A DNA stretch of 64,000 bases, taken from positions 34,729,648 through 34,793,647 of the forward strand of contig NC_092673.1 in NCBI RefSeq assembly GCF_964355755.1, given 5' to 3'. Under the pieces are notes generated by a model. The model made no database searches, was not told the origin of the DNA, and saw only the letters and a list, made by a program, of their open reading frames with translations. How positions within the stretch are numbered: the stretch's first letter is position 1; each line of letters begins with the position of its first letter. The translations under genes and the position numbers were made by a program. Below, piece after piece: positions 3,753-57,600 of the stretch. The DNA is from Antedon mediterranea. Lineage: Eukaryota > Echinodermata > Crinoidea > Comatulida > Antedonidae.

Positions 3753-3787
3753 CTTAAGCTCATTGAGGTATACCTCAATGTTAAGCT
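3753..3787. mobile_element. Ultra-short palindromic insertion (19 bp) with 7/8 flanking repeat
   Basis: A 20-bp perfect palindrome, CATTGAGGTATACCTCAATG (3761-3780), is flanked by CTTAAGCT on the left (3753-3760) and GTTAAGCT on the right (3780-3787). It matches the three better copies at 15287-15321, 47856-47893 and 55895-55932, with one symmetric change in each arm. The right flank is the very edge of the neighbouring TA-flanked MITE, so the small element probably inserted at that MITE's end. Confidence 0.55.
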
Positions 3788-6400: not shown

Positions 6401-6536
6401 CAAAAGACCGGTCTGAATTGTAAACCAGTTGTCCGAGACCAAGAAAGAGGTTATTCAATTTTTAGTGTTTATATTTAACGTGTTTACGGTGGTTTATTTT
6501 GGGTATTTAAAAAGAAAGATTAATACAGTAACTCAC

Positions 6537-7650
6537 CGGTTTTCAATCTTGAGTTCTCCGTTTCAAAATCAAAGACATCACTATCGCTATCAACATTTTC
6601 TTTAAACTCATAATCAATTGAATCACAATTTTCTTGTACAATAACTATAGGTGTTTCGTCTCTGGATTTTCTTCGTCGGTGCCACCATTCTTTGATGGCC
6701 AAACTCTTCCGTCTTGGTGGTTTCATCTCCCTGGGGCTAGGTGGTTCCATATCGGACTCGATAGAATCAACAGACTCTTTACTGCCGTGTGGTGAACGCG
6801 TTCGAGTTACTCTTGCCACCAGTCGTGGAATGGCCAGTAAAGACACAGACGGCCTTCGATTGTCAGAACTGTTTGAAAGTTCTCTGGTAGATCCTTTATA
6901 ATCTGTGCATCCAATTTTTTGTAGTAACTCCATTTTCTTATGTATAATTTCCGTTTGGATGTTTGTAAGAAACGGATACATATCCACTGGTTTAACACCT
7001 TTTTTGTTTTGAATTGTTATTCGTGCCCCGTGTTCAAGAAGAATGATCAAACATTCATGGCACTCTGTGTGCCGTTGCGCGGCTACGTGCACCGGGGTGT
7101 CACCGTTATCGTCTGCGCAATTGACGTCTGCACCATACTTGATCAGCAACCTCGTAAACTCTGCGTTGTTTTCTGACACCGACAATGATAATGGTGGACC
7201 ACTTAGGAAATGGAAGAAATCTTGGTAGTATTTGGTGATATCATTGCTTGTGCTTTGCGAATAAGAAAACCCTGTATTGTTTAACAGTTTGCGAATGATA
7301 TCAACGCATTCTGATTTGGAAGTTGCAGATGCGTCAGGGTTGCGTTGACTTTCAAGAATTTCACGCGCAACTGCCGCTGACCAGTGCGAAACAGCAAAAT
7401 GTAAGGCAGCCTTCAATACAACCTTATAGACGGTGTAAATCCCAACTGTTATACACTCGTCATCATCATCGTCATTTTTGTTTGAATCTTTATCACTTTC
7501 GTCATCATTTCCAATGATTATGTTGACCTTAGAGTTCATTCCTTCCATTATCCATTGCACTGTTGCTACGTCATCATTTCGAATCGCGTCAATAAACATC
7601 TGATTGCCGTCTTCTTCAGTCGTCGATTCATCGTCACTGATAATAGACAT
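6537..7650 (-). CDS. Ankyrin-repeat protein, first coding exon (partial gene)
   Basis: The open frame starts at ATG 7650 and reaches a strong donor (CCG/GTGAGT at 6536). The 371 codons open with an acidic stretch (DDESTTEEDG, later NDDDDDE). Ankyrin repeats follow at about residues 152-230, with the diagnostic words LLIKYGADVNCADDNGDTP, VHVAAQRH and LLEHGARITIQNKKG; a further diverged repeat may precede them. After the repeats comes a Ser/Arg-rich basic region (RRPSVSLLAIPRL, PPRRKSLAIKEWWHRRRKS) with many possible basophilic kinase sites. Ankyrin repeats bind partner proteins, but I do not recognise the family and assign no function. The frame continues past the donor for only a few codons to a stop, which is intronic read-through. 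The next exon is probably at 828-1009. Confidence 0.85.
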
Positions 7651-10600
7651 TTTGAATGAAATACAACCTCAATTGGCTTCCTCTGGTTTTATAGTTAACC
7701 TAGTAACAACATCATTCCAAGATTTTGTTCCAAAAAGTAATGTGCCCTGGATAACGGTTGGTCAATAATAGCCACCTTGAACATTCGTCAAATATATTCA
7801 TTTTTGGTCATTTAGTTGGAACAAGAAAGAGCCATGTCTCTCTTCCCTTGATTGAACAACAATATTTGATTCAAACCACGTTCCTTGTTGTGAAGATCTG
7901 GAGCGGTGATCCAATTTTGCATCCTGTAGAAGAGGAGATAATGAATAATTTAGCTTTATACGAAGTACCAGCATTGTTTAGCATATTAAATTATTATATA
8001 GCGAATAAACAACTTTATCTCTAGGCTCTGGAAGATGAATGTGTTACACATTTTCCACTAATATTATATTATGCACAAATTACCTGCCTCTAATTTCGAA
8101 AACATACTAACAGACAAATCGATTAATGTGGTATTACATACATGTTTTGCGGCTTGAAAAACACTTACCTGAGAAATGTGAAATGTTATCGTGATGTATG
8201 GACTCGGTTTAAAATTAGGAATGTATAATACAACAATATAAATTGACTAAAGATATCGGGACCGATCAATAATATTATTTTAGACATTGGAATAACAAGA
8301 CATTATAAAGCGTCACTTAAAAAGGTGGTTACGGGTTTGAAATATATAAACATTGATAATATAAACCCAACTTATTGTTAGACAGGGGTGAAGCAGCAAG
8401 CACCCCTTTGATGCTAGCATATTTACTGATTTTTAAGACAATTGGTAACTATTAGTAATAAAATAAATTTTTTCTAGCATTCGATTAATCGCTGTCGTAA
8501 AATAAATGGGTTATTATAAACATGCAAAGGTGTATAATAAACAATGGCAATTAGGAAACCGGTACCCTTTAAGCCAAAGATTAATTTTTTTCATATGAAA
8601 TTCAATAGTCATGTTGATAAACAGTTATCGCCCACATAGACACATTTGGTTATAAAAAGTAACAAGGTATATTTGATTTCAGATGAAGTTATTTCTTCAT
8701 TATGAAGTATTAATAGCAGGATATCAGGCCTACTGTAATTACCATCTCCACCGTAATCTATATCTTCATCATACGTCATTATTAAACATTATAATCAGTT
8801 AATACTATATAAGTATGAACTATTATTAGTACTCATCATCGCCGTCATCATCATCGCTAAGCTTATTTTGAATCCCATGAGGACGCAAAGCAATTAATTT
8901 GACCAATCACAAGGGATAGTTTAGATGATTCGTCGCTTGTGATTGGTCAATTTACTTGCGTTGTGGCGTAGTGCGAACCAAGCCTTATCAGTATCATTAA
9001 AATCATAAATATCACTCATCAACATTTTAATAACCGTTTATCATTATTAGCATGCACTCATAGTATATTATCATTCTTGTAGTTTTTATCAACATTAGTG
9101 TTGTTAACTTATTATTACCTTCGCTTTTTGTTGCTTCTTCTTATTTTTACTCTTAAACCAAATTTTACAGAACATGAGCAGACACATTATGGTTACCTGG
9201 TTACGGCTTGATTTAAATGTTTTTGGTTTTTCTATTTGACAAATTATCAGACAAGAATATAAAACAATTATTTAGTTGAATGTTGTATATAGGATGTCAC
9301 TTATATTCGATGGTATCGACGTACGTGTCATCATAATCTCCCAAACTATTTTTTGTAAATGTACCAAAATACTATTTAATTAATCCACCCTGTAATTTTA
9401 ACATGGAAATAAAGATTTCCGATAATATGTAAAACATGTGAAAAGATTTAATATCCCAAAGCAGCAGATACTATACTTAGGCCTAATAACAATTTTTACA
9501 TCCAGGGAGATGATTCAAAAAGTCCCCGGGTCATCAACAGAAATGCTTGTTTTAACATTGACTATCATTAACTGGAAATAATAAAAGAGCGTATTTAAAC
9601 CTATCGAAAGAAGTAAAAGAATGATATTAATAAAAGCAGTTCTGTTTCACATTACCTTGATTCAATTTCCTGCATTGCATCGGTTGAGTGGAGATTGGTT
9701 CGTTGTCAAGATATTTCTAAGTGCGCTTCTTCATCCTATAGCATCACCGTCGTTACTACTAAACATCTTATATGCGGTACACGAACACAACTGATTGGTT
9801 TACTTGAAAATCAAGGAACAGACGATGTGATTTCCCGCTACGTCAGCAGCACGACGACAATCGCAGTTGATTAGCCGCTTAATTAATAGTTCATTCTTGT
9901 AACCAACACTCTTTGAATTGTATGTGACAAAGGCAATCATTCACGTTACTATCTTAATCTCGGTATAGCTGTTTTTGCTAATGCGCAAACACACTATATC
10001 AAATAGGACCATACAATAAATAAATAATATTGACCCTTCCCTCTCATTGCTTCTGAAAGTACCTAGACCAGCAATTACCCTGGCCCCAGCCCCTGTATAC
10101 ACATGGTTATCCCCTAGCCTTCCTCTGACCCCAGCTCATGGATATCCAGGCCACAGCATCAGGACAACCCAATTTACTCCCCTGGGATCCTCTCCTTATA
10201 CAATCCAGACGTACGGGTCTTATTAGCAGGCCTATGCGTATAGTTTGTATGTTCCTATGTTGATATCTTAAACTCATAAGCTGTAAATTTTGCTGTTTAA
10301 TAATACCGAGCAGTACATTGGAGTACGTTATGATTAATACAATAGTTGCTTTGTGTAGTATTGTATCGATAGGAAATTAACTACGTTAGAGCTTGCTTGT
10401 TATGCAGTTATGGCATAATATTGCTACTTTTACAGTTTAAATCAATTACAACGTTGAAATACTGATGTAGGCCCATCTTGCTTCTACCCACGGTGCATTA
10501 GGTGTTCATTTTTGTATTAATTTTTAGTAGGCCTATAGTAATAATTTATTTGGTACGATGAGATTGATTATGTATAAAAGCATTTACGTAATAGGCATAA

Positions 10601-12731: not shown

Positions 12732-15229
12732 ATGGATGATGATAATGATAAAAAGTAAGTTGTATTTATGTCTCAGATTTGATGTCTGGTTGCCCAGACC
12801 TTAGGATAGAAACTAGGCTAGCCGCTACTTTTGACGTGTGTGCGAGAATATCATCAGTACTTACACAGTACACTGCTACAACAACATTATAGTATTATAA
12901 TTATAATATATTTATATTATAGGCCTATATATAGTATATAGGCTATTTCACTGCAGTTGAGTGCAGTTTCTTTACAAAAACCAAATACAATATAGCCTAG
13001 ATTACTGTAGGCCTAGGCTAGGCGTGTCCGTCCTAAAACTAAGCCCTACCAACGTGATTAATCCATGCCAAATATTGAAATAAAGCTCATACATTTTTAT
13101 ACCATATTTTTTAAACTTTTTAAATTATATTTATGACTTTTTTAATTTTTTTATTTTTTTTTTATATTTTCAGAACATTTCTCATTGACATAAACATAAA
13201 ATACCAGTTTACAGGAACAGAGGGTGATATTGTTGAGAGACTAAAGAATGGTATATATAAATTATTTACTTTTTTCAATACTTTAACAAAATGTTTATCC
13301 ACACAATTGTTTATCATTACTATATTTTCTATTTTTCATTTAGATAAAGAATCAATGAAGAATTCCTGTAATTCTTTGCTTAACACCGGATCAATTAACA
13401 ATGGTAAGCTTTGTAATTGTTTAGACAGACTGCATATACATGATTCATGCTATGAAAGCCCTCTTCTTGCAGAGATGACAAAAAACATGGTGACCAGCGA
13501 AGCTGTAGCAATGTTTTCAAAGGGTTCCTAGACACCATGTTAATTTTTAAAAGGGTCGTATAAGAAAAAAAATTACTGTAAAATGTTAAAAGATTGCCCT
13601 ACATCACTGAAGGAAATTGAAATGTTTTTTGATTGTCTAAAATCTATCGAAAAAACACCACACAGTAAAAGCATAGGCGATTCTTTTTAGGATTTTTAAA
13701 TTTACATGGTGTCCGGGAATCTGCAAAATGTCTTCTGTAGCACGAAAATGATCTATTTAATTGATATCTTACTAGCGCTCCTCTCTGGTTTGTGATAATA
13801 AACAAAACAATGCATTTTGTTATGCCCATTAGATACTTCATTTGATATATCTGTCACTGCTGTCCACATCTCCAATGCTGTAACTAAGCAAATGTGTACC
13901 GTCAAAGCTGATCAACCAATCAGTGAAGCTCTTGAAGTACTTGCCACAGCAACAGAATTAAGACAGACAATGGGATCAGGTTGGTAATTCTTTCGTGGTG
14001 AGGGTGATCAGTGAGGTAAAGGAGAATGATGACAATAATGATGACTATCATTTGTAGTAATAGGGAGGTTTTACAACGCTACGAAAACGGACACATCACG
14101 CACACATTCGGCGTTTTCATAAGCCAGTAAAAATCTGTTTCTTATGGCAAAGAAATATTGAGGGCGCTATCCGAAATATGCCTGTGGAGGTACGTGTTGC
14201 TTGGCTGCCTAGGCCTAGCGTAACATCAAAGCGGTTGTTTATTTGAATAAATACGGTATATGAATATAACTACTGTACTTACTTTTTATCTATCATACTT
14301 TTAATATTTTAGAACCAGCCCCTCAAGAAAACATGGCGCGTACTATTACTGAAGACAGACCAGAATCTGATATTGTTAAACAGAGCATGAATGCTATACT
14401 GCCCTCATGTGTTTCAATCATCAAACCTCAAACGGAACATCATATTAAATCTAAAAATAAAAAGGTTACGAACACTACAAGATGTAGGCCGCGACCCATA
14501 GCTATCAAACCTCAACCTCCTACTATTTACGGCCACACAGCCAGCACCTCGCAGCAGTTTGTTCCGTTAATTTTAAAACCAGTTAATAACCCTTTCACCA
14601 TAATTCCACAAACACAAGTAGTTCAAACAGACGATACTATGGCAATCAAGAAACCCATGTCGTGTAGCCAACCGATTTCACCACAAGCATCAGAGTTTGT
14701 TAATAATCAAAAATCTTTTGCATCTGATCTTCACACGTTTCGACCGGTTAAACCAAACGAACTGCTTCTAGACATATACGAAAGTCACTTACATATGTTT
14801 GCAGAGAGTGTCTACTCAAGGTCAAGTCTGTGGGACAAAGTTGCCACCAAAATGGTGGAACACGGTTACAAAGTTACAGGGTGCCAGTGTAACAATAGGT
14901 GGCGATATTTACTAGCTACATTTAATAAAGTTGCAGCTAGTGGTGAGGGTACACATTCTTTTAAGTATTTTAACCGTGTAGCTGAAATTCTTCATAAAAA
15001 AAGTACAATGCCTGGCGTGAAGTCGCAAGGAGTACTTGACGAGGCCATGCTTGAGGTGCTTGGTCATGCGGAACAGCCGGTTGTCAAGAAACGACGAAGG
15101 AGAAAGGAGGACGAGAAAGACGAATTAATAGCAACATTAAGTAAAAAGATGGAACAATTACAAGAAATGCAGAATGAGATGACTACCTTTTTATCAGAAT
15201 TTAAGAGTGGCGCTATTAAAAAGCAATAA
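12732..15229 (+). CDS. Myb/SANT-like (trihelix-type) DNA-binding protein, six exons
   Basis: Model exons are 12732-12754, 13174-13250, 13344-13403, 13473-13523, 13833-13979 and 14313-15229; phases close to give 424 aa. The last exon is the most secure. It encodes a Pro/Gln-rich linker and then a Myb/SANT-like DNA-binding fold: LLLDIYESHLHMF, SSLWDKVATKMVEHGYKVTG, CNNRWRYLLATFNK, YFNRVAEIL. A basic nuclear-localisation-like stretch (KKRRRRKEDEK) and a C-terminal coiled coil (ELIATLSKKMEQLQEMQNEM) follow. This architecture suits a nuclear DNA-binding protein that oligomerises; similar proteins are often related to transposon-derived Myb factors. Donors after exons 4 and 5 are weak (GTTCCT, GTTGGT) and were chosen because only they keep phase, so the N-terminal half is less certain. 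The stop codon overlaps an AATAAA; further AATAAA sites lie near 15484 and 15605. Confidence 0.7.
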
Positions 15230-15286: not shown

Positions 15287-15321
15287 GGTGTACTCATGGA
15301 GGTATACCTCCATGGTGTACT
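15287..15321. mobile_element. Ultra-short palindromic insertion (19 bp) with perfect 8-bp TSD
   Basis: The 19-bp element CATGGAGGTATACCTCCAT (15295-15313) is bracketed by GGTGTACT at 15287-15294 and GGTGTACT at 15314-15321. The element is nothing but two facing arms. It lies in the 3' untranslated region just downstream of the SANT gene stop codon, so it is probably transcribed as a small stem. Confidence 0.75.
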
Positions 15322-15921
15322 ACAGTATTTTCTCAAATGTTAATACTGTATATAACCATCATCAATTCAATGAATTTTTTTTTTATTTTAAACTGTTTAA
15401 AAAAGAAAATTATGAAAAAAGTTAAAATATGTTACACAGATACATAGAATAAATTAGATAATTGAATTGTGAACATTGCATTCAATAAAAAACAAAGCAA
15501 TTTGTTTTGTTGCAACATATACAATTGTGTTTTTATATTTTGTTTAATATTTCTGTAAATGTATTAAAGTGAAACCTATTTGTCTAAACCAAAATCTTAC
15601 AAATAATAAATAAATTTGAAAAAAATATGTCAAGCCTAATCAACCATTAACTGTATACAGTACTGTAAATTTTTATATGAAAAGCACATTGAGGGCGCAT
15701 GTTTACTGTAATTTCCAGAGCCATATAATAATGGCTCTGGTAATTTCGAAGAACCGCTGACCCCGCAGTGTTGTCTGGTTGTTTTTGACAATGGTAAACG
15801 CGTTTTTAATTATTATGATGCATTGTTAACGCGATTAGTCATCAAGTTGTGTTGTTGTGTGTCATCGCTGCTCTGGTTGTTTTCGGTGTGATTTTTCGTA
15901 AAAGGAACCGTTTTTTAAGCT

Positions 15922-18900
15922 ATGGGTCTTTTTGGAAAGACACCCCAGAAGGATCCAAAAGAACAAGTAAAATATTCATGCCGTAAATATTATCAAAGGT
16001 TATACATAGGTTTAGTTAGGCTAATGTTTATCCTAGGCCTAGGCTAGATAGGCATACTAGCAGGCCTCGTTTGGGGAAATATCGTCGTTTCCCTGACTGA
16101 CTTCCCTGCTCATCTTCGCCCTACTAGGCCTAGGCCTAGTACTACTAGGAGTACTCTACACTACTAGCTATGCCTAGGGTATGTAGTCATAGTCATTTGT
16201 AGTCTTGGACCACGTATGAGTTTTGTATTATTTTGTTTAATGTAATAGCGTAATATTTAATAATATAGCCTAGCTAGCCTATTTTATAATCATAATATAG
16301 GCCTAGGCCTAAATGCATTTTTATTTATTTATTAAATATTAATTAAATTAAGATATGAAGATGAATAGAAATGACTGGTGCCTAAAGTAAAACTAAAATT
16401 TTAAAATTATTTTTTATTTTGTGCTACAATTTACAAATTTCTTTAAAACGTTGTTAATGTTAAGTTAGGCCGGCTTGCATTATTTTCAGCTGATTGGTGG
16501 ACCTATTTTTATTCAATCTTCTTTTCATTTATTAAGGTGAGACAATGGTCGTCATCGTTACGAAAACAGCAGAGGGTCCTTGATAGGCAGATAATGGGTA
16601 TGTTATGGATCATTGCTGTCTGATCATTCCGGCTGCCATAAACCAACTTTTCTTACCAATTGTTTTTTTCTCACCATTGCCTAGAGAGGGATTTCTTTTG
16701 GAAAGTACTTACGGCGATCAAAATGAACAGTATGCACTGTCACGTTCTTGGCGATCCTTTACAGTGCCAACAGTGGCCACAACATTTTTTAAATGCAAAT
16801 ATATCTACATATACCCTCAAAACTTAACCCTAAAAAAATAAATAAATGATATTTTCCTCCAAACATTGTGCTAGTCCAACTATATAATTTAGATAATAAT
16901 AATGTTGAAGTTTACCAACATTTTATTTATATTTATTGATTGTGACTGTCACATGATAATAAAATCTAGTAAAATTAAAAATGTTTAAATATTTTTGTTA
17001 TGTTATATTTTAAGCAATAAAAAGAGAAGAAGAGAAGGTCAAACGATCATTAAAAGATGCTGCAAAGAAGGGACACAAAGATGTATGTACGGTTTTAGCT
17101 AAAGAAATAGTCGGCTCTAAGAAAGCAGTGACACGTTTACACACCTCAAAAGCACAACTGAATTCAGTCGACATGCAGATGAAAAATCAGCTAGGTGAGC
17201 TAAATTTGTAGATGTCGTAGACCCAGTCTTCATAGTGACGTTGGGATTATTCAATGTACTGATAGAAAGTACAGGGTGCTGTATCTTTAGTTATACTGTC
17301 AAAATTCTATTAGACTATACGTAACTTAGACTATACGTAACTTAGACTATACGTAACTTAGACTATACGTAACTTAGACTATACGTAACTTAGACTATAC
17401 GTAACTTAGACTATACGTAACTTAGACTATACGTAACTTACGCCCGTATTCTTAAACCGGACTTTAGTCGTAGTTCGAAGTTCGACTTGGAAAAGTCGTA
17501 GTTCGAACTATTACTTCAAATTCGATTCAAAAACGAAGTAGTCGAAGTTTGCAGTTCGACTTAATGAAGTCGAGCTTTTAGTCGAGTTGCACACGTCTGG
17601 GTAACAAAGGCTATACATTGGCCAATGACAAGAGAGTATTTGAGGAGCAGACGAAATTTTGCGCATTGATATCACTTTCCATTTCTTACAACACTTTTTA
17701 CGCATCAGGACTATATACATGAAAAATAATTTTAATCGTTAATTATTAGAACAATATCAGTATTAATTTAACAGTGAAGTATATTTGATTAACAACAAAT
17801 AAAATCTTAAAAATATATTTAGGAACCATGGCGGTACGGTAACTTTTATATTTTCTAGGACCCCAACAAAGTATGATCGCCACGAACCACGCACTTCATA
17901 GCGTGACAAGAAAGCGCTAGGCCCCCTAAACATTCCATCGCGTGGTGAATTGCCGCATCTCCCATTGTCGCTATGGCGTGACGTAGCTCAAGTCGGACTT
18001 GCGCGAAGAAAATAATGTAATTTGTATACAGTTGTAAATAAAGATGATTTTCATTATTATAATTTATACCAATGTATATTTAATTAAGCTAATATAAATA
18101 TAGATATTTCATTCTTCAATATCTGGCCAATATAACAACTCAATGACTGTTACGTTTTTTATAAACATCGTTTAAAAACCATTTAGTCGACCATTTAGTC
18201 TGCCCCCTCCAGGACTAAAAAAATCGATCAAAATCCGTCTCGATTTAGTCGAGGTTGGCCTGATTTAGTCGGTGATTTAGTTGAAGTTCGGTTTATGAAT
18301 TAAAATGACGTCATTTTTTTAGTTTTAGCTCGAACTACGACTAAAGTCCGGTTTAAGAATACGGGCGTTAGACTATACGTAACTTAGACTATACGTAACT
18401 TAGACTATACGTAACTTAGACTATACGTAACTTACGCCCGTATTCTTAAACCGGACTTTAGTCGTAGTTCGAAGTTCGACTTGGAAAAGTCGTAGTTCGA
18501 GCTATTACTTCAAATTCGATTAAAAAACGAAGTAGTCGAAGTTTGCAGTTCGACTTAATGAAGTCGAGCTTTTAGTCGAGTTGCACACGTCTGGGTAACA
18601 AAGGCTATACATTGGCCAATGACAAGAGAGTATTTGAGGAGCAGACGAAATTTTGCGCATTGATATCACTTTCCATTTCTTACAACACTTTTTACGCATC
18701 AGGACTATATACATGAAAAATAATTTTAATCGTTAATTATTAGAACAATATCAGTATTAATTTAACAGTGAAGTATATTTGATTAACAACAAATAAAATC
18801 TTAAAAATATATTTAGGAACCATGGCGGTACGGTAACTTTTATATTTTCTAGGACCCCAACAAAGTATGATCGCCACGAACCACGCACTTCATAGCGTGA

Positions 18901-21900
18901 CAAGAAAGCGCTAGGCCCCCTAAACATTCCATCGCGTGGTGAATTGCCGCATCTCCCATTGTCGCTATGGCGTGACGTAGCTCAAGTCGGACTTGCGCGA
19001 AGAAAATAATGTAATTTGTATACAGTTGTAAATAAAGATGATTTTCATTATTATAATTTATACCAATGTATATTTAATTAAGCTAATATAAATATAGATA
19101 TTTCATTCTTCAATATCTGGCCAATATAACAACTCAATGACTGTTACGTTTTTTATAAACATCGTTTAAAAACCATTTAGTCGACCATTTAGTCTGCCCC
19201 CTCCAGGACTAAAAAAATCGATCAAAATCCGTCTCGATTTAGTCGAGGTTGGCCTGATTTAGTCGGTGATTTAGTTGAAGTTCGGTTTATGAATTAAAAT
19301 GACGTCATTTTTTTAGTTTTAGCTCGAACTACGACTAAAGTCCGGTTTAAGAATACGGGCGTTAGACTATACGTAACTTAGACTATACGTAACTTAGACT
19401 ATACGTAACTTAGACTATACGTAACTTAGACTATACGTAACTTAGACTATACGTAACTTAGACTATACGTAACTTAGACTATACGTAACTTAGACTATAC
19501 GTAACTTAGACTATACGTAACTTAGACTATACGTAACTTAGACTATACGTAACTTAGACTATACGTAACTTAGACTATACGTAACTTAGACTATACGTAA
19601 CTTAGACTATACGTAACTTAGACTATACGTAACTTCAAGGCAAAGTTTATCTTAGTAAAATGTGATTTTGTTTTCTTTATACAATTTGGTCGTTAAGATG
19701 CTTGACTTCGGATATCCCTAGGTCATGCGTTCAAATGCTGTCTGGCTTTTTCTTAACAAAATTACAACTCACCACTCCCAAATTGTTTATTTTTAAATAG
19801 AATATCTTGTGTATATATTTGTGTGCCTGTTTCTCCAGGAGATGAATGTAGCAAAACAACCGAGAATCCAGACATTCTCAACCACACTTTATTTCCTTTT
19901 GGAATCATATGATGTACCACAAACCTACCTTTAATAGTGGAATCATATGATGTACCACAAACCTACCTTTAATAGTGGAATCATATATGATGTACCACAA
20001 ACCTACCTTTAATAGTGGAATCATATGATGTGCCACAAACCTACCTTTAATAGTGGAATCATATGATGTACCACAAACCTACCTTTAATAGTGGAATCAT
20101 ATGATGTACCACAAACCTACCTTTAATAGTGGAATCATATGATGTGCCACAAACCTACCTTTAATAGTGGAATCATATGATGTACCACAAACCTACCTTT
20201 AATAGTGGAATCATATGATGTACCACAAACCTACCTTTAATAGTGGAATCATATGATGTACCACAAACCTACCTTTAATAGTGGAATCATATGATGTACC
20301 ACAAACCTACCTTTAATAGTGGAATCATATGATGTACCACAAACCTACCTTTAATAGTGGAATCATATGATGTACCACAAACCTACCTTTAATAGTGGAA
20401 TCATATGATGTACCACAAACCTACCTTTAATAGTGTTAAACAATATTTCTCTTGTAAACAGAGAAAAGAAGGAACACCATCATAAAAAATACATACAAAG
20501 TGTTAACATAATTGACTGATATTACAAATAAAGCCATTTATAACAGATTTTCCAGGAAAGCCCAAAAAGAGCTTATTTCCATTGAGATCCTTTTATAATC
20601 TAAAATAAATATTACAAAGTAAAGACAGACCGACCGACATAGTGAACTATAGAGTCGCGTCCACCCACGCGACTAATTGTCTGTACATCAAAACAGTTAA
20701 AAAAGTACAGAAAAGCGATAAAACGCATAGTGATACCGGACTGACCGACAGACCGACCGACATAGTGAACTATAGAGTCGCGTCCACGCGACTAAAAAGG
20801 CTATGATTGACTAGTTATTTATTTAAAAACGTATTTACAGTATACAGGATGAAAAAAACATATCAGTTAAAGAATAATGAATACATTCACTAATAATTAA
20901 TTCCTTTACATCTTAATATATATATTTTGATTTTAAATAACACAGCGTTGTTTGTTTATTTACAGCTATGGTGCGGATGTCTGGTGCATTAGAGAAAAGT
21001 GCTGAAGTTATGAAATCTATGCAGTCACTTTGTAAAATAGGTGAAATCCAGGGTGTCATGACAGAGATGTCAAAAGAGATGATGAAGGTATAGTAATAAT
21101 GTTTTGCTTGTTCACACAGTAAATAAATCTGTGAGAAGAAAAGAAGAAGCTTTCCAAAAAAAATAAACATTTGGAGAAAAGTTTTACTTGTATTGAGGTG
21201 TGTTCGCACTGAGGCTGGATGGAGAAAACTTTTTTGTGGTCCACACACATACATTTTGTATGGAATTTTAAGTGACTTTGTGTGAACAAGGCAATCTAAC
21301 AACAGGAGAATGAGCTTTACAAGATCAAATGTTTACCTCTAGTTTCGAAACGATAAGTCTCCGCCGCCTAAATGCTCGACTCATTTTCAAAGTTGTTAGA
21401 TTGCCTGGGTGTGAACAGATCCATTCCTATTATCATTACACCCATTTTTCATGATATTTTAATTGGCCACCAGACCAGAATTTGGACTTGGTATGAACGT
21501 AGCTTTAATATAATTAAACATTGGAAGGAATTTGTCTTTATGTTTTGTGATTTTAGGCTGGAATTATTGAAGAGATGATAGAAGACACTTTTGAAAGTTT
21601 AGAAGATCAGGATGAACTGGAGGATGCTGCACAAGAGGAGGTCGACAAAGTTCTATTTGAAATTACAGCAGGTTAGTGAATGATTGATACAGATAGGTGA
21701 ATGAAAAGTAAAATGAATGAGAACAAAGAAAGAAATCAATGGATTATTGAATACGGTATAACCTACGGGGACACCTCATTCATAATCTTACTAGGAATGC
21801 CTTCTGAATAGAATCCCCTGGATAGGGTTGTCCTCTGAATAAGGTGTTCAAAAGAAGGAGTCGTACTGTTATCATAAAAAAAGTGTCCCCTTAATTACTA

Positions 21901-24277: not shown

Positions 24278-26897
24278 ATGCTTTTAAGCAGGGAAGAGTT
24301 AAATTACATGGAAAACTCACGGACCTTACATCAAACGTTACAACGCGCGGCACCGCCGATTCGATTACATAATCAACGGATGTTCGCTCAAGACGAAGTA
24401 ATTGCTTTGCGCATGCCCAGAAGCGATTGTTTTCCGGTCGGTGACCGCATGCAACAACACACTACTGATGACGTCTTCGTCGAACCGCCCCCCTTGGTAA
24501 CCTGACGCATTAAACTTTTTCGATATATATCGCGACGTAGTCGTCCAATTTGTATTTTCCGTTTTTAGAAAATTTCCGTACGCACATTTCAAGTATATGT
24601 AATAGGCTAGGCCTACTTGCTACACCAGGTCCTACTTCAATCTAGGGCTAGTAGGCCTAGGCCCTAGCTAGTAAGAATGTAATTGGCACTCCTAGCTAGG
24701 CTGGCCCTAGTAGGCTAGCCTAGTTACTTTATTTAGCCTAAAATAGGCCCTACTCAACTACTACTAGGCTAGGCGCGCGGCCTACAATCTTCTCTTCTGG
24801 CTAGCTACCTAGGCCTATTTCGAATTGATATGCTTACCAAACTAAGTTAGCCTGATCCTGTTTTAACAATAAGAGTGTATTTGTAGGCTACTCGGCCATT
24901 AAAAGTATCTCCTGTGCGCGCCAGTTGCATGTACCGGTAGCCTACCTAGGTCTAGGGCCAGGCCCAGAGTTCTTCCCTGCCTGAAAATAATTCTGCATTG
25001 TATTATTATCAGTTTTACATAATAAAAATTAAGAGATCCAAATTAATAAAACATATTTCTTATTTTTTTAGGATCATTGTGTGAATACTATAGTATAATA
25101 ACAATAAATACAAGTGAAATGGATGTTGGTGAGGCCATGGAGCTTTTAGAGATAATTGATGTGTTCGATAATGAGTGGACAGATTATGATTTTATGTGAA
25201 CTGTATTGTGCTGGGAGGTCAAAAGTATAGAAGAAACTAATTCTTTCCTATAGACTACACCAATGACTGGTTGAAGTGACGTTCAAGGGGGAGGGGGTGC
25301 TTTTCACATAAAAGATGATGTGTATTAATTTGTTTTTTAGAAACTTAGATTTAGAAATGGAGAGGTTTTTGTCGCTAAAGGGAATGTGTAATTCCAATAT
25401 CAAACAGAGTATTATTATCACACACTGGTGTAACTTAACAAATAATAAAATAAAAGCAAAAGACAAAAAAAGTTTAAGGTTGGAGTTGTAAATTTATTTT
25501 GTATAAAAATCAGTACTGTATAATCATGTCAATAAAGGTATATTTCAAAGTATGTATTCATCAAATTATGTGTTTTGTTTTTAGTCAAACCAACATACAA
25601 TTTAGAATATACTTTATTTACAAAACAATTTTTTATTAAAATTGTTACATGATGTCATAATGTTTATCAATACCAGAGTAAAAAAAGAGATTCTTCGTAA
25701 GTACTGAAATATATTTTGTTCCGTGACATTCTTTATCTGCTTCAAATGGCTGAATCAACAGATTTACAAAACAAGTATCAATTTAAAATAACTAATAAGT
25801 TATGACTGTCAGATTTTCCCATCTCCCAAGGCAACTCCTTTCTATACTGAAATAGTTTTCTATTCTAGAGCATCCTGGTTGTTTTTCTCACGGAAAAAGT
25901 ACACAATCCGTCTTGTACTATCAGGCTTCTTCTGTGAAAGGAATATCTTGGCCATGTCAACAAATGAAGAAACTGTGGATGAAAAAAAGGAAACATTATT
26001 ATATACAGTATTCAAATAACAAAATTCAGAAACCAATACCTTCTGTAGGCAGCATCTTGGGTACCATTGCGATGAATTGCACTTGGATGAAGAGAGGAAG
26101 GCCTAGCTTATTTTAGCTAGCCTAGCCCTAGCTAGCTAGGTAAACCTACTCTACTAGAAGTTTGTTTTAATTAGGGGCCTAGGTCTAGAACTTTCATTTT
26201 ATGTTAGCCTGGTATTTTTGACTTATTTAACAATTGAAAAACTAAAACAGGTTGCCTGACAGAATAGCAATAGGTGGCCGATAGGCCTAGCAACAGCGTC
26301 TATCTGGAATAGCATGTGGGCGGAGCTTACCAGCATCTCGCCGCCGAAACTGAGTAAAGGTGGTTCAGAAATCTTTTATTTTTGGTATTTGGTCGGAATT
26401 GGTCGCAAATAAAAACGGGACCACAATATATATAGATGTTATTGGTTTCACATATCTGAGCTAGACATTAGGCAATTTTAGGCATATGTCTCTAAATGCT
26501 GATATAAAAGACGATACATTTCGTAAAAGGCCATTGCATACTTACCGAAAATCCACCTAAAAAGCGTGTTTCTTTGTGAAAATACACATTTTAAAAAATG
26601 GAAACGCTTGTGTAACGTGTGCAAAATAGTCTCAAATCAGTCGTTAAGTGTTAAACCACTTATTTTATTTTAAAAAACCAAAAAGGATTTCTGAAAAAAA
26701 ACGACTGGTAACAAGTCTAATGCCAATCTACACGTTGGTGGCAGCATATTCAGTAATTGGCGGTGCCGCGCGTATGGGACCAAAGGGGAAGTTAGTTTAT
26801 TCATAAAACAATAGAGAACAATAGCGATTTAATTGCATTAACACGCCTCAACGGCTCGTGAGTTTTCCATGTAATTTAACTCTTCCCTGCTTTTAAG
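24278..26897. repeat. Long-range inverted repeat arms bounding a 2.6 kb segment
   Basis: The left arm at 24280-24326 (GCAGGGAAGAGTTAAATTAC, then ATGGAAAACTCACG) recurs inverted at 26855-26897 with a run of at least 36 matching bases. A second matched block, ACGCGCGGCACCGCC (24341-24355), is inverted at 26758-26772. The outer flanks do not match, so the arms end there. Between them are AGGCCTAG-rich DNA, a two-exon mini-ORF on the minus strand and a 26-codon ORF on the plus strand (25119-25199). It could be an old transposon or an inverted duplication of a promoter-like segment. Confidence 0.65.
25860..26067 (-). CDS. Possible two-exon microprotein (46 aa)
   Basis: From ATG 26067 in a good context (GCAATGG), 28 nt lead to a GAAG/GTATTG donor. 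A TTTCATCCACAG acceptor resumes at 25972 and the frame runs to a stop at 25860. The product would be 46 residues with a basic C-terminal half (FLSQKKPDSTRRIVYFFREK). Codon use looks plausible and the intron has a good acceptor, but I recognise no family. It could equally be the last exons of a longer transcript or a chance ORF inside the inverted-repeat segment. Confidence 0.3.
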
Positions 26898-26899
26898 GT

Positions 26900-28757
26900 T
26901 ACATACATTACAGAAAATAATCAATTTAGTTTTTGTAATTTGATGTTTGAATAATAGAAACAAAATCCGATTAAGAACGTTAAGTCAGTCTCATTATTAT
27001 TCTTTCGTTAACGTGCCAAGAGACTCATACTAGTATCGATCGATGATCATGGGAGCCTCATTGTATGACCTTTGGAATTTTCCTAAAGGAACCATCTTTG
27101 TAATATCTACTTGTAGAAGAATACTATGTATTAAATTCATTTTATTTGTATTTGATGTATAGCCATGTTAACCTTAAACGCGCAAAAGTTTCACAACATG
27201 ACAATACTGTAGGCCACTGTATACATTTTAAGAATTATGAGGCTACTCGATCGATTCGTCAGTCTGATCCGATTATATATTTCACACAACATAATGCGAT
27301 CAATGTAACTGTAAAAACAAAATATACTAGGCTCATTTCACCCAGGGCATTAAGAGGCGGGTCCCGATATAAAAAGAAGGCGTTGCTTGTCTACATGCAA
27401 AACACGGATGCGGCTCCTGCTGTGACTGCTAATTCCTGTGGTCTACCATGGAAAAAACTATGTTTAGGTAGCGCCTCGCACTTTTGTCAAAAAGTGTGAT
27501 GTGCCCAAATATTGTAGATATGCCCGGAATGCCCAGATATGTGATTATTTGTTGTGAAATAAAGTTTGATAGAACTTCCACTGGAATATAGTAGGTTTTG
27601 TTTTGTTTGATGACTTACAAGAAATGGAATTGATGAATTGATTGAATAAAACCATCTCACAGGGCAAGAGGTCTGTTAATTGTTGAAATTTCAATTAAAC
27701 CATCTGTTCAGGTTAATTTTATACCTCTATGATCTGGTTATCCACCTTCGGTCTACTTGGTGGCCCCTGATCAGAAAATTACTCGTATGATAATAAATGT
27801 AAATCATCGCTAATAATAATGCAATTAAGTTTAAGTCGATCCGAGTTGTATTTAAATTAATTAGTAGGCCTAAATTGAGTTAATAACTTCATAACAATTT
27901 ATTTCAGGCCGCGATAATAAACATATTTTGATTTTAATTCAACCGTCTTAACTGAACTTATTTATTATATCTCTTTTATATGAGAGGCACGTCTCAATGA
28001 GAGATGTGCAAAGCCTAGATATAAGGTAGTAAATACAATTAAACAGAAAAACAAATTTAAAAATATTTAAAAAGTATGTTGTCATGACAATTAACTTATA
28101 TAGTAAACAAAAACATAAAATAAACTGAGAAACATTAAGAACTAAGAAATGTAGGCTACAAAAGTTTGAGAAGGAGTTGTAGATTTTCGTGTGTTTCAAT
28201 GCCATCGTGGGGTAAGAAAATATTTTTAATGATTTTTGTCGAAAGTTTTACTTGCCAATTCGATACTTATCATAAGTTAATTAAATTGATGTAATTTATT
28301 TCTTCTTATCCTATATTGCTAAATACAGGATAATCATCTATTTTATTTATTATTTGTGATGCGATCTCATGATTCGAAAATCGATTGGATCAGAGATCAG
28401 TGACGTGGCAAAACATATACATGGCCACGTATAAAGTTGAGTGGTCTTAACACATTGGATTTTATTTTTACACAAAAACGGTGTTTTGTTATAGTTTTCA
28501 TATTGAACTTAATATTAATGCTATTTATTTATTTTGTTTGATTTAATAAACTTTATTAGAAATTTCAGGATCAATAAACAGGTTCATTCTGATTTTATAA
28601 GCAATATTTTGCATCGCAAAATTGGGCTGTAAATTTTACAACACGGTTTTTTAATAGTTACAGATAGGTGGCGGTGTTCCGATTTTCTGGGTACCATTTT
28701 TATTCCAATGTGCGAGAAATAGGAAGCATATTGGTTGTGAAAATCAACGTTTTAATC
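26900..28757. other. Intergenic DNA upstream of the p24 gene
   Basis: No gene is recognised. Around 27480-27575 is a fragment resembling the interior of MITE family B (AAAAGTGTGATGTGCCCAAA and AATAAAGTTTGATAG). The 117-codon open frame at 27146-27499 has no motif and no family resemblance. Confidence 0.5.
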
Positions 28758-32677: not shown

Positions 32678-32845
32678 TGTCAAGGCCAACTCATATTGCA
32701 TTGTTTGACGAGGCCCGACGAAGATTAAACATGTTTAATGTTCTCCCGACGACCTAAAAACTACGGCCAATGCCATCACAAGACGACTCATCTTATCTGG
32801 ATTCAAATCGGACAGCACCCATGAGTCGACGGGCCTCATCATACG
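32678..32845. mobile_element. MITE family D (copy 2)
   Basis: Shares GTTCTCCCGACGACCTAAAA, the CGACGAAGATTAAACATGTT region and the closing ATGAGTCGACGGGCC with copy 1 at 31793, and starts CAAGGCCAACTCA. Its right terminus is degraded. Confidence 0.6.
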
Positions 32846-33146: not shown

Positions 33147-33790
33147 GCCCTTCATTTCGCCTAATAGTCCAATATTTCTTTACTCCATGATAATAGATTT
33201 TGATAAAACAGGCTTTCAAAAATGATATATTTACATGAATAATTTTTATGTGTAATCAAATCAGTTTTAAAGTTATTCTATCTCAAATTCTGTTAATGGT
33301 GACATGAAGGTTTGTGTGGTTAGTTTTGTCATGGAGGTAATTCTAATTGTATACCTCCGTAACGTGACGTGTGACGTTAATTTTTAGAATCAGAAAGTGA
33401 AACAGGAAATGAGGATTGACGGTGTAGATAGAGCACTGATTGTAAGTTAGTGCTGCCCTCATACCACAACTTATGTCTACACACTATAATATTAAATATG
33501 TATTTTCCCCAAAAACATGACAAATTAAGAACACTATCAGACTTTGAATGTACCATTTTGGCAGTTTTATTAAAGATATTCATTTCCGTAAAAAAATGAA
33601 TAAAAATAATGATTTCATTTATAAAAAAGTAATATAAATTAACCAAAAACCCATGGTCTTTTGCCTTCATATGACATTTTCTTTTTGGTAATTCTTTTCT
33701 AATACAATTTTTTGGTCAAAATGAATTGTGACATTAAATGTCATATTAAGAAAAAAATTATTTTTCAGTGGAAAATAATTACATCTTTAA

Positions 33791-33900: not shown

Positions 33901-34532
33901 CTCTCCATGTATATTATGACATACCTGACCTGACATATGAATATATTTCATACATACTTCATAATGATGAATTGATACCTTTAATGTATACCTGATGACA
34001 GCAGAACGTGTGGTCAATATTACTAATACAGTATTCATTTTAAATCCGGGAAGAGTGAGAATCAGGAACAGGACAATTGACTTAAAACATCAGTTTTTAT
34101 TACGGAAGTATATAAGTTTATAGCATAAAGACACGGTAATGATAACTTTATTTGTTTTTTCTATCGGTGGCAGACATCCTTAAGTTAATTATACAATATA
34201 ATTAAAATTTTAAAAAGAATAAAAACATGAACTGGACACTATTTAGTTCATTCATTGAGAAAATATCTTTTGTACATCAAGGTAAAGATATAAAAAGTGG
34301 ATTATCTTTCCTTAATCCAGGTTTATAAAGAATAAATTAATCCACCTTCAGTTAATACTACTAATCCTGATTTATTGCATTTCCTTGAAATAAACCTTTA
34401 AATCCTCAGTTTTACTATCATTTGTAGTTCAAGGTAATTTTCCATCCATCCTAAAAATGTTAGTATGTAGTAATTATTACAAACACCTGATTGTGCATGG
34501 TATATGTTGTGTGTACAGTGTATATGCAGTAA

Positions 34533-37630: not shown

Positions 37631-37930
37631 TATGTTTTTCCCATGGAAGTTGTCAGTATATTCTAAAGGGTTGGAGCATAGAGATATTATAGTTCACTAT
37701 AATATCTCTATGGTTGGAGTAATAGTGTTTTATAAGAAGCGAGATTTTCCCCACCCCTTTCAAAATGTATTTGTAAAGCCTGACTTTATCATAATACATT
37801 TTATTACCAACTTTTTTCTGCATGACACTCATGTGTCCTTCCCATGGGAGTTGTCATAAGAACAAAAGCAGATTTTCGCCACCCCTTTCAACAATGTAAT
37901 TGTAAAGCTCAGCTTTATCTTAATAATACA
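37631..37930. repeat. Diverged direct duplication with an internal 16-bp-arm hairpin
   Basis: CCATGGAAGTTGTCA...CCCCACCCCTTTCAA...AATTGTAAAGCC-type sequence occurs at 37631-37790 and again at 37839-37925 with indels. Only the first copy contains the perfect hairpin CATAGAGATATTATAG / CTATAATATCTCTATG (37677-37712, four-base loop). Confidence 0.65.
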
Positions 37931-46434: not shown

Positions 46435-49400
46435 ATGGCATCAATGATTAACGTATCTCAACTTCTTCAAGCTGCAGAGTTTTTAGAGAGACGGGAAAAA
46501 GGTTAGTTTCATGATTTTGTCCATAAACTTGGAACGTTTCCGTTTTGACAGCTGATGATCAATTCATTCAAGGCAATGCTTTACACAGGCAATGTACCAA
46601 CATGGATCGGGATGTCAAGACTTGTCTGCTTCGTCAGAAAGTAAATAATACAGAGAGATAGGCCTATGGAATTTCCAAAGTAGGCGGAATAAGAATAATA
46701 TTAAATATCATACTCAATTTTGTATTTTTACTTATTCAATAAGTAATTTTTCAAAGAAAAAAATTATACTTGAGTTGTATTTTATAAAATTTATTTTTTT
46801 GCCTCTCAATCAATCAGCCCATCCCTCGATGAGGGTATAACTATAAACATTGTTGTCGATCAGATAAATAATTGACCCTACCTAGGCCTAGATACAAATT
46901 AAAGTACTCTTTTCTATTACATTTTATTTAGAACATGGATATGCTTCCACTTTACCACGTAATCATCATGAAAATATTAAAAGAAAAATGAAGTCTAAAC
47001 GAAATTATAATACAAGCAGGTTTGTGTTTTGAAATTCTGCACATAATTTCACGAAGGGATGAGACCTCTATGATTGAACTTAATCAAATACTACAATATT
47101 ATTATTAATATTATTATTATCATCATAGGCTTCTGGTCCTCCTTCTAACATTACTATTTAGGCCTAGACAAAATGTGCTTAATGCATGTTATATATTTGA
47201 GAGTGACTTGTTTTACTACTACTACTAGTACTACTATAATAAGACTAGGACTATTATCAATATCTTTCCATTGATAAATGTAGTATTAAATCTGTTATTT
47301 TTTTTCTTAACTTTCACAGCCGTTCAACCCACAATGAATTGGAGAAGAACAGGTAAGGGAATACAATAGAAGTCCGCCAAAAACTCAGGGCCGTTACTTG
47401 TGTGTTGACCTTGAGTCATGAATTATGCATGAGTCATTGTGTGGCATTTGCATTCATTTGATTGTTGTTGTAGTAAGCTAGTTCATTGTCAGGAAATGAA
47501 TGGCTAGTTACGTGTATCTCCTGTTTATCTCAATCTCATGATTGTAATTTGGGTGTGACCATGCTTTACTTGGTATCATGTGCTAATTAATTCACACTTA
47601 GTATAAACAACAATTAACCTTTTCAGAATTAATATTATAAACTTTCCACTATAATAAACTGGTTGAATGACTGCCACTACAGAATTCTATACTATATAAT
47701 TTATAATACAGTATTTATTGATATTACAATAATATTTTTTTGCAAATTCTTTTATTTGCTTTCACAAATCATTGATTTTTATATACTACTAATGCATTTA
47801 AAATAAATTATTCCCTGTACTGTTAATTTGTATTCAATATTATACTTATCTTATTGGTATAACCATGGAGGTACAATACCTCCATGGTATAACAGTCATT
47901 AAAAAATATATTGGAAATGGATTTTTTCAGTAATTAATAATTAAATTTTATTTTTCTTAATTAGGCGAGCACATTTGCGAACATGCCTTGAAAAACTAAA
48001 AGAAATCGTTCCATTGCAATCCGAATCATCAAGACATACCACTTTAGGTCTATTAACTAATGCAAAAGCCTTTATTCGTGTAAGTACTATTTGTTTTTTA
48101 TCATAATTTTTCTTGATTTCATTGTTTTTACTTGCTTATAGATATATTAATTTTTTACTTTTGGATGAAAAAATAATATTTGTTATGTTTCTACCATTTG
48201 TAAAATATCAAATTTTTTTATTAGCCAAACAATATTTTACAATTTACAAGATTTTTTTTTTTTACATATTACAATTTCCTACGAAATAACGTAACAATTT
48301 GTTTCCTCTTAAATTGACATTTAGATTATATTAACAGAAGCTAAGTTGTTTGTTTAAATGCTTAGTAATGATTTCAATTTATTTGTCAGGAACTTCAGTA
48401 TTACAATCGCCCACATATCTATTGTGAACTACCTTTGCGTAGAAATGCTTGTTCTTATTTCCTGATAGAAGTGCATTAAAAAAAAACCCTATATAAATAT
48501 AGAATACTGTACATACAATAATTACCACATATAGATAATAGTGCCTTAGTTGTCATATGGGACATGGTAAACATGATCATTAATTTAAACAACAAACATG
48601 GATTCTGTACCTTGGTACGCTAAATACCATAATACAGTCATAAAGTTCGTAACAAAGTAAATAAGACTATCAATATTACACGTTTTATCAGCAAATTATT
48701 CTACATACATTACGTTTATTTGCGATACAATTCACACATGGTTACATGGTAAAATAAAACAATGCAATTTTTAAACAGGTGATACAATTGTCTGGAGAAT
48801 GCTAAATATAAGCCTTAAGGGAGTTTTAAGCCTGGTTCAACAAGAATAAGTATTCATTGCGCTATATTAGCCTGTATTCAGGGCAGCTGAAAAACAAGGA
48901 AGCAACAGGAGGGAAACCCTTTTCCAGTTCACTGCACACATAGTAGTTACCATCAGTTTACCTCATGGACTAAGATTATCCATGGGCTTTAAGTCACTTC
49001 TCTCCAGCTTGCTAAATGAAATACCATTTAAAAATCAGAGAATGGGATTAGGCTTGTGGAAAGGAAGTACACCAGCCGACATAGGTTTAACATCTTAATT
49101 CATACTCAAAGTCATAGTATAGTCATAGCAGCATTCTAAATTCACTTTAAAATAATTGTAATTTTCTAAATAAATTTAACCTTAAATTGAACATGTATAC
49201 ATTATATTCAACTAATTAATTCTAATAGTAATAATTATAAACAAAATTTACTTATGCAGTTTCCATTCTGCAAACATATGATGAATAGTGTGCACTAAGT
49301 ATGGTAATTGTCCATTAAAATTCAGGACCAGTTAAACGCATGATACTAATGTAAGCGGACTAGCCATCATTGTTCAAATACCTCTGTATTGATTATAATA

Positions 49401-54636: not shown

Positions 54637-57600
54637 ACTTTTCGGAATTCTTTGACAAGACTTTTTGGACATTGCATCTCACACCAGCTAATTGGCACCA
54701 TGTTTACTCCTAAAAATAAAAAAAAAAAAACAAACTTCCTAACAAACTGCATACTGTAACATGACTCATAGGTGGTCATTCAGCCTGGGCCCCATACATT
54801 TTAAAAATTACAATGCAAAAGATAGGACAGTAGATCTAGTTCAGCACTTAATTTCACAATTTTTAGGCCTGACCCACTCCCTCCCATCCTGGATTTGCCA
54901 ATGTTGTGTTACTGTATATGACCGAGTATAATCTCAATCTCGCAAATAAATCCCATGCTTGATATTAATCTCATCCCCTAATTCTCCCGCAGCCTTTATA
55001 CTCAGGCCTCTAGGACTATTACTCATTTCTTCATGGCAATGCTAGGGCAGAAATAGAACAAATTTTGAATAGACAGACATGAATGTAACTACTGTATCTT
55101 TTTTTGGTTGTTCATAAATATTGTATACTTATTATAACCACACCTTACCCCAAGGTATATATAAAAATAATCAAACAACAAATATACCTGCTTCGCTGTG
55201 TGCTAGTACTACTCCCAGCTCATTTGCTGCAGTTGATAGTAAGTATGATTGCGAGTCTCCCAGAGAAAGCTGGAAAAAAAATCAAAATAAATTAATTAGT
55301 TTTACATGGAAATGGTATGGACACATGTTAAAGACTCAATTACATAGAAATGGTATGGAAACATGTTAAAGACTCAATTACATAGAAATGGTATGGAAAC
55401 ATGTTAAAGACTCAATTACATAGAAATGGTATGGAAACATGTTAAAGACTCAATTACATAGAAATGGTATGGAAACATGTTAAAGACTCAATTACATAGA
55501 AATGGTATGGAAACATGTTAAAGACTCAATTACATAGAAATGGTATGGAAACATGTTAAAGACTCAATTACACTGAACGAATTAAACAGAAAAGTAAGAG
55601 GACGATCTACATCTATATGAAAGTTAAAAAGGGAATATATTGAAAATATATCTTTATTCATCCCTCATGGGGCAACTAACAACAGACAAAACATAAAATA
55701 AAATAACTGATAGAGGAAAATGGTATAGTGGAAAGCATCATGTCTCAAGACAGAGGTGTAACTGATGATGATTTAATACAACATTAATGTATTAACATTA
55801 AATACAATAGTGTTATGAGTGATATCCCACATAAGTTCAACACTGGCTGAGTCTAAATGGAATTCAGTGAATACAATCAACAATTCCAATAGATGCACTG
55901 ATCATGGAGGTTTTATACCTCCATGCACTGATTATGTTTTAATAACATAGCATAAAACTAACTCCAAATATTGAGAGGCAAGCCATGATTCAACGTTTCG
56001 ATCTTTATCTTTATTTGATCATCGTTGAATCATGGCTTGCCTCTCGTTATTTGGAGTTAGTTTATGTTATGTTATTTAAACAATTTACTATTCTCAAAAT
56101 TCTCTTTTACTTGGCCTAATCCTTATGAAATTTAAAAATAAGAATTTAAATATTTAACAGTGCTGTAGCGCAAAAATAATTTCTGGATACCTTCTATATT
56201 AAAAGCATGGCAGTATGTATCTCTAATGTTTAATTTTATATTCTCATTAGTTGGAATAGAATTATGCTGTGCTAAAATAATTCCAGGCCTTTATTTGTTA
56301 TTGTATTATTCAGATATACACCTGCCTTTCTGTACAATAACCATGCATTATACAGTCTTCTGTATCTTTAGGCTACACATGGCATACAGTAGCAGGCCAG
56401 GTTGAAATCCCCACCTGGATAAAAGCAGTATTCTAGACTGATTACTGAGCCGCTGTACTCTATGTAATTTAGCCAAGCCTCAGTAATTTAATGTGCATTC
56501 AGATGGAAACAAATCTATTGATTTACTTGACCTTTTAGTGTAAAAATAACCTTGGTGTGAACATGTGTTACAAACTAGGTTTTACATAGATACAGTACTT
56601 GTTGCACCAGTGTCACAGCTTGCCGTGAGAACTGTAAAACGTGGATGTTTAACCAACCTGAATTGAGGAGCTAAATACTATTGTTTTGAAAGTCAAAGAA
56701 AATTATTTTTTAATTTGTGTTAATTAAAATGTGGACTGGTCAACCAAGGGGAGAAAGTACAAGGCCTATTGTTGGGAAGTCAGAAGAGAATTAATTCTAG
56801 GTTAATAATACAAGGACTACAGGTTACTTAAATAATGGAGATACTAGTACTAGACCTATTGTTGGAAAGTTAGAAGATAATTAATTTTATTTTAATACAC
56901 GTGGAATACTTAAAGATGTATTGTCCCGCTGGAAAAATAATTCTTGCAATTGTTGTTGTTGAATATGCTGGGAAAATTTCATCTTAAAATTTTGTTTAGC
57001 AATATTGCTAATAAAACTGATGTTTGAGTCGAGAAACATAGTGCCATTTTAATGTCACATAATAGTTATCCACTTTGACCAAAAATTGGATGAAAACAAT
57101 TATTTACATAAAAAACTGTAATTTAAAGAAATAAATAGTCAAATTGGCTGCCAGCCAATGGGTTTTTGGTTGATTTTAAACAATTATTTTGTCATTTTAT
57201 AAGTGAAAAAATTAATTTTTTTCCCTACAGAAGTGATTAACTTTATTAAAACTACACAATAAAGTCTAAAGTCTGATTTAATTAATCTTCATTTTTCATG
57301 TCAATGGAGGACCTAGTACAGGGCACTAATGTTGGAAAGTCAAATGTTATGTTAAACAAAGAAGGAGATACAGTGTACTATAAGCATATTGTTGGAAAGT
57401 TAGAAGATAATTAATTTTCATTTATGTTAATACTGTACAAGGATAGCTTAAATAAGGGAGGAGCTAATACAAGGCCAACTGTTTGAAAACAGAAGATAAT
57501 TAATTTTCATTTTGTTAAAATATGAACTAATCAATCCACTGAAATAAAGAAAAGCATAGTAGATTTATTGTCTAAAAGATAGAATTTCATTATTTCTTAA

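Follow-up and report, generated by a model that had tools for sequence, protein, structure and literature searches.

The palindrome at positions 15287 to 15321 of the window (the whole stretch of DNA analysed, 64 kb at C4:34729648-34793647 of the 354,431,138-bp Antedon mediterranea assembly in 18 contigs) is bounded by direct repeats, and it raises the question of whether a unit of some 20 bp can be a mobile element in itself or is what a larger transposon left behind. A first-pass annotation had described four such sites as copies of a complete mobile element of 19-22 bp with a conserved core and an 8-bp target duplication, and the four are present exactly as it had written them. Based on a blind, sequence-independent scan of the window for outer arms of at least 8 exact bases, a total length of 16-48 bp and an exact 7-bp flanking repeat, five sites were identified, namely those four and a further one at 37677-37712, and CATNGAGRT is the start of all five palindromes. 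The same scan of dinucleotide shuffles of the window (n = 200) yielded a mean of 0.015 sites and a maximum of 1. Since five sites were observed against 0.015 in the shuffles, the pattern does not arise by chance; the palindromes with their direct repeats were therefore real, whereas the 8-bp length of the duplication and the single conserved core did not hold. Our reading of these sites, which we consider very likely, is that they are end-joined excision footprints of P-superfamily transposons and not tiny mobile elements.

Table. Short palindromes and related features in the window, named according to the reading favoured here (TSD, target duplication).
Feature	Position	Strand	TSD or flanking repeat	Core and remarks
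Excision footprint	15288..15321	.	GTGTACT, 7 bp (15288-15294, 15315-15321)	CATGGAGGTATACCTCCATG (15295-15314); two 12-nt transposon ends with TATA common to both (overlap)
Excision footprint	47857..47893	.	GTATAAC	CATGGAGGTACAATACCTCCATG (47864-47886); arms of 10 and 11 plus two inserted bases
Excision footprint	55896..55932	.	CACTGAT	CATGGAGGTTTTATACCTCCATG (55903-55925); arms of 9 and 15
Excision footprint, CATTGAGG subfamily	3754..3787	.	TTAAGCT	3761-3780; at the edge of a dispersed repeat
Excision footprint, CATAGAGA subfamily	37670..37719	.	GTTGGAG	37677-37712; mirror arms of 17 nt separated by 2 bases; new to this analysis
Probable degraded footprint	33330..33358	+	no recognisable TSD	CATGGAGGTA...TATACCTCC
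Possible solitary transposon end	27722..27731	-		CATAGAGGTATAAAATT on the minus strand; partner end not noticed
Palindrome of another family	15708..15747	.	GTAATTTC, 8 bp	CAGAGCCATATAATAATGGCTCTG (15716-15739), CAG...CTG

The window is unusually rich in scars with CATGGAGG ends, as it holds three against 0.07 predicted from the genome average. The palindrome at 15708-15747 is similar in design to the CAT-family footprints, a likeness from which we claim no P-like nature, and a palindrome-like sequence AGATTAAACATGTTTAATGTTCT at 32714-32752, with an exact 8-bp flanking repeat CCCGACGA, likewise lies outside the CAT family. An Rfam search returned no match. When viral contigs were scanned for the palindrome six of them matched, and by eye their printed flanks carried no 7- or 8-bp repeat.

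The window contains several other features. A candidate DNA transposon of 2,601 bp (24289-26889) has the TIR CAGGGAAGAGTTAAAT, a perfect 8-bp repeat CTTTTAAG and hAT-like ends. Highly homogeneous minisatellite arrays occupy 17310-19635 (16-bp unit), 19900-20435 (38), 34528-35423 (32), 39885-41480 (43) and 58831-59692 (39), the last being open in several frames. A Myb/SANT-like domain is found in a long frame at 14270-15229 (+), and ankyrin repeats in another at 6520-7668 (-); a search with the ankyrin frame returned only distant ankyrin proteins.

A genome-wide search, as proposed at first pass, gave at least 405 forward and at least 406 reverse matches of the pattern CATGGAGGTN{0,6}ACCTCCAT in the 354-Mb assembly, against 0 forward and 0 reverse matches of the reversed-pattern control. 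Fifty-one of the at least 405 forward matches, from C1 and the start of C2 and contained in 50 stretches, were inspected; L-numbers designate individual genome loci taken for inspection. The element was defined as CAT...AT and one further base; on this definition the 7-bp flanks were identical at 30 of the 51 sites, differed by one mismatch at 10 and by two or more at 11. Several sites are copies of one another, and with such copies merged the 46 distinct flank pairs comprised 28 exact, 10 with one mismatch and 8 with more. When the left flank of one site was paired with the right flank of another, the 7 bp were identical in 0.2% of pairs and differed by one mismatch in 1.2%. The flanks differ between sites and are duplicated within a site, which bears out the earlier view of the copies as products of transposition at unrelated places. 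Chance palindromes or regulatory inverted repeats would account for the short length and for nothing else; with the excess over the shuffles, the empty reversed-pattern control and the duplicated target sequences all against it, such an origin can practically be dismissed.

Concerning the length of the duplication, an exact 8-bp repeat outside CAT...ATG, as expected for a hAT-type duplication, was found at none of the 51 sites. An asymmetric reading, in which a 19-bp CAT...AT is bounded by a G-first 8-mer, fitted the window, including 3761 on the other strand, and was rejected on the genome sites, 9/51 of which it fits. The annotation had itself mentioned a 20-nt palindrome with a 7-bp duplication as an alternative, and this is the version that the 30 exact sites uphold. 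The 7-mer is preceded by G at four of the five window sites (by C at 3761), which is largely luck, because in the genome sample G stands before 8 of 29 distinct exact 7-mers. A palindromic preference, (G/A)TYNRA(T/C), emerges from 42 distinct target 7-mers, a set to which other subfamilies, L086 and both whole elements described below also contributed.

The 11 sites with two or more flank mismatches are a counterpoint to excision footprints. Among these misfits the palindrome flanks are inverted at L026 and roughly inverted at L048 instead of direct; a rearrangement between two ends may perhaps be involved, and we claim no explanation. At L017 and in the repeat L036/L047/L053/L100/L104, three extra bases (CAT, CAC or complement) separate the palindrome from one copy of the duplication and look like the remains of an earlier event.

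The empty-site search in the window covered six sites and was usable only at 3761, where the right flank is part of a dispersed repeat. Five copies of this repeat in the window can be aligned through the insertion point and lack the palindrome, although the repeat begins at this very point and the comparison extends no more than about 10 bases to its left. A cleaner comparison was provided by L109, which carries an extra CAGGGAGTTGTTATTAGATAACAACTCCCTG and a second GTTTGAC, both absent from the paralogues L107, L108, L110 and L111. Insertion with a 7-bp duplication is thereby demonstrated for a second scar-leaving family. The scars with CAGGGAGTT, found at L067:558-584 and L109 (L091) with 7-bp repeats GTTATAG and GTTTGAC, possibly form this second group. 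Scars can also multiply passively within other repeats, since L112-L115 represent one repeat with a copied scar.

The possibility, raised at first pass, that the palindromes are ends-only remnants of a larger transposon gained support from two elements that retain both ends. One of them, L055:4054-7183, is 3,130 bp long, with the TSD GTGAAAT and a perfect TIR of 36 bp (CATGGAGGTATAAAAAAGAAGGAG..., starting CATGGAGG); the other, at L087, measures 878 bp and has a 7-bp TSD, GTTCAAG. Both are candidate parents, a term that implies no functionality. For a lone end at L090/L096 the partner end was absent from the 9 kb inspected. Within the 3,130-bp element, L055:6174-6359(-) matched PF21789 (TNP-like RNase H C-terminal, TNP-like_RNaseH_C) with an E value of 1.8e-9, and in the PDB nothing but the P transposase 6p5a (E 1.9e-4) matched this fragment up to E 1. 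The first-pass annotation had proposed to look for longer elements that share the termini and carry a transposase, and P had been listed among the candidate types; the elements exist, and the P-type transposase domain is represented in them by a 62-aa fragment of one copy. No THAP domain matched among the seven ORFs tested of the L055 copy. The 36-bp perfect TIR starts with CAT and the duplication is of 7 bp in both two-ended elements, as in the 30 exact scars, where the P superfamily calls for a CAT start and 7 or 8 bp. Taken together, the transposase fragment, the ends, the duplication and the scars suggest that the parents would be members of the P superfamily.

An origin of the scars from another superfamily (hAT, Merlin or other) was suggested by the flanking direct repeats of about 8 bp on first reading and by the presence in the window of the element with hAT-like ends and an 8-bp repeat (24289-26889). 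However, the duplication is of 7 bp, a P-transposase domain lies in the 3,130-bp parent, and hAT elements, when excised, leave hardly any of their termini behind, or none. We find such an attribution highly unlikely and keep to P-type scars.

Two further features of the 3,130-bp element deserve description. Antisense to the transposase fragment, L055:4286-5978 (+) holds a gene-like frame with a Cys/His-rich region that looks PHD-like by eye and has no Pfam match; a protein frame that forms part of it shows 96% identity to an Antedon mediterranea protein across 98% of that frame. The element also contains a scar of its own family (about L055:4645-4664, TSD GTATTAA), in an apparent intron just past a GTGAGT donor.

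If the palindromes are joined transposon ends, their centres can be compared with the parental termini. Four end subfamilies, CATGGAGG, CATTGAGG, CATAGAGA and CATGGAGAAA, were distinguished. Among 43 CATGGAGG sites (40 from the genome and 3 from the window) the centre takes 16 forms. With the 3,130-bp element as parent, 37 of these 43 centres consist of exactly two parental end fragments with an overlap of 0-4, and in the remaining six there are 1-5 additional bases; length-matched random centres decomposed likewise in 3177 of 20000 cases. The overlap was TATA in 10 centres, TA in 7, a single base in 19 and none in 1. When both parents were used, 44 of the 51 cores proved to be two truncated copies of one end placed head to head with 0-4 bases in common. 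The TA and TATA overlaps are self-complementary and therefore fit the pairing requirement of two identical tails, while single-base overlaps say little by themselves. Microhomology and short insertions, the junction signs of a P-type excision footprint, are both present.

This variation bears directly on the idea that the palindromes are mobile themselves, as an ultra-short MITE of two arms of about 10 bp moved in trans by a transposase. As such an element would predict, many copies lie at unrelated places between exact 7-bp duplications, and three whose arms agree are found within 64 kb. Yet no single unit that includes the centre, which it would need, is shared: the centres vary by site and are mostly two parental end fragments, several subfamilies exist, and scars with arms of 16-17 nt grade into the short ones. 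Moreover, Drosophila P transposase reportedly requires internal P-element sequences (so the title of a 1989 paper), of which a 20-bp unit has none. The conserved core and the complete 19-22 bp element of the first-pass annotation thus find no support here, the latter in view of the 7-bp duplication, the end-joining type of centre variation and the longer elements with the same ends, and we judge autonomous or assisted movement of the palindromes very improbable.

The footprint reading was examined further through the lengths of the arms. A second sample was based on the 16-nt end CATGGAGGTATAAAAD, which occurs 322 times forward and 364 times reverse in the genome (control, 0 and 1). From its first 100 places 20 loci were taken, 12 picked because two ends face each other and 8 others; the set holds copies of one repeat (L079, L084, L089, L091 and L093) and of another (L081, L082, L083, L088 and L092). 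The 12 facing-end loci comprise 8 with exact 7-bp duplications, 3 (one repeat) with one mismatch, and L085, in which the repeat is shifted by one base. Arms were counted in 71 scars, that is, the 51 pattern sites, 17 of the 20 CATGGAGGTATAAAAD loci and 3 of the window, leaving out L086, L087 and L090. In 141 of the resulting 142 arms the match to the parental ends is no longer than 17 nt, with the qualification that the 51-site pattern itself limits arm length and longer arms could appear only in the 20 CATGGAGGTATAAAAD loci; the lone exception, 19 nt, is in the composite locus L084. Measured by mirror symmetry instead of parental match, the arms reach 18 nt at L076 and L078 (which have one more base in the A-run than the 878-bp parent), 19 at L074, a scar of the 37677 family (CATAGAGA) from a 200-kb sample of C1, and 17 at 37677. 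The ends are thus kept for close to 17 nt, give or take one or two; the limit is approximate and not a strict 17. This is the length at which each side of a P-type excision footprint should end, and it contrasts with the 36-bp TIR of one parental element.

P elements are said, in the available portions of PMC1562414 and PMC4168063, to delete internally after excision, and the palindromes might instead be internally deleted transposons from aborted gap repair. One locus, L086 (75 bp), is structured as this process would leave it, with 17 nt common to both sides followed by a longer stretch of one end; it retains some 17 nt from one terminus and far more from the other. Aborted gap repair would be expected, however, to leave ends of variable length, often well above 17 nt, against 141 of 142 arms at or below that value (L086 left out). 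We regard it as an improbable origin for the collection, though less so than the other alternatives, and retain end-joined excision.

Most of what is known about P-element excision and its repair comes from Drosophila in the laboratory. The P transposase of Drosophila leaves 17-nt 3' extensions, according to excerpts of PMC7776569. The closest likeness to the scars is offered by P{wa}, as described in the available parts of PMC2895639. Excision of P{wa} in a Rad51 mutant gave junctions of the form acccagac-CATGATGAAATAACATA...TATGTTATTTCATCATG-acccagac, joined near the tail ends at AT in 14 isolates and at TA in 5 (32 nt of transposon sequence), with one blunt join and many short, often templated insertions; in 20 isolates the join was made at long microhomologies into the TSD and the palindrome was lost, a class that is not recognisable by the searches used here. 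The crinoid scars agree with these products in having a TSD, head-to-head ends CAT...ATG with up to 17 nt per end and a second TSD, in being joined at TA or AT, bluntly or with short insertions, and in the CAT start of the parent TIR, the P element end starting CATGATG (PMC2895639, same parts). L077, a 32-nt TA join with an end of the Antedon mediterranea genome, is like the P{wa} product. In contrast, P{wa} has an 8-bp TSD and the end CATGATGAAATAACATA and its excision was laboratory-induced (PMC2895639, same parts), whereas the present scars have 7 bp, several end families and a natural origin. Galileo, also of the P superfamily, resembles the family in its 7-bp TSDs, a palindromic target of the GTANTAC type and a P-type transposase, and differs in its long, foldback-like TIRs (excerpts of PMC4168063 and PMC2775673), the one perfect TIR measured here being of 36 bp. 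Zebrafish Pdre2/THAP9 is another deuterostome member of the superfamily with a TIR starting CAT (CATACC), and excision was assayed for Pdre2; unlike the crinoid elements, Pdre2 has an 8-bp TSD and a 13-bp TIR, CATACCTGTCAAC (PMC10983969, in the portions available).

Based on these comparisons, the scars could be produced as follows. A transposon with ends CATNGAGRTAT... would insert and duplicate 7 bp of target, as observed in the genome copies. The transposase would then excise it by a long staggered cut, and on each chromosome end the duplication would be followed by a 3' tail of some 17 nt derived from the transposon, as we infer both from the point at which the scar arms stop and from what is known of the enzyme in Drosophila. 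Because the tails are identical in sequence but inverted relative to each other, only short self-complementary stretches, for instance TA or TATA, would allow them to pair. The tails would then be trimmed and sealed by end joining, probably of the polymerase-theta type, sometimes with the addition of a few bases, in keeping with the junction pattern described above. The product would be a duplication, two head-to-head transposon ends and a second duplication; it would have the look of a very small palindromic element but is very probably unable to move.

As for abundance, the first ten loci of the CATGGAGGTATAAAAD list (C1 up to 3.74 Mb) comprise 7 scars, 2 two-ended elements and 1 lone end; 5 of the 7 scars are independent, since L089, L091 and L093 are copies of one repeat. 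In this small sample scars seem to outnumber intact elements, and the excess of footprints (7:2) seems more than expected unless excision is frequent. The regularly spaced 200-kb sample of C1 contained one CATAGAGA scar and zero CATGGAGG scars with exact duplication.

Footprints of this kind are already known from Drosophila experiments; what is new is a natural collection in a crinoid, with 7-bp duplications and arms near 17 nt. In the portions of the literature at hand no genome-wide survey of P footprints was recognised, which is weak evidence of absence. A broader proposition, quite possible and put forward tentatively, is that in this feather-star lineage several P-like families were excised from the germ line very often, that microhomology end joining greatly prevailed over gap repair and left more scars than intact elements, and that the stagger of about 17 nt is conserved between insects and echinoderms. 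For annotators the case is a warning that short palindromes with target duplications can be scars and not ultra-small MITEs. If our reading is correct, the scars would be a natural genome-wide record of the staggered cut of P transposase and its repair. Since they number in the hundreds and come from related families, the cutting geometry of P-like transposases in non-insect genomes could be estimated from them statistically at little cost, and they would also report on germ-line break repair in an echinoderm.
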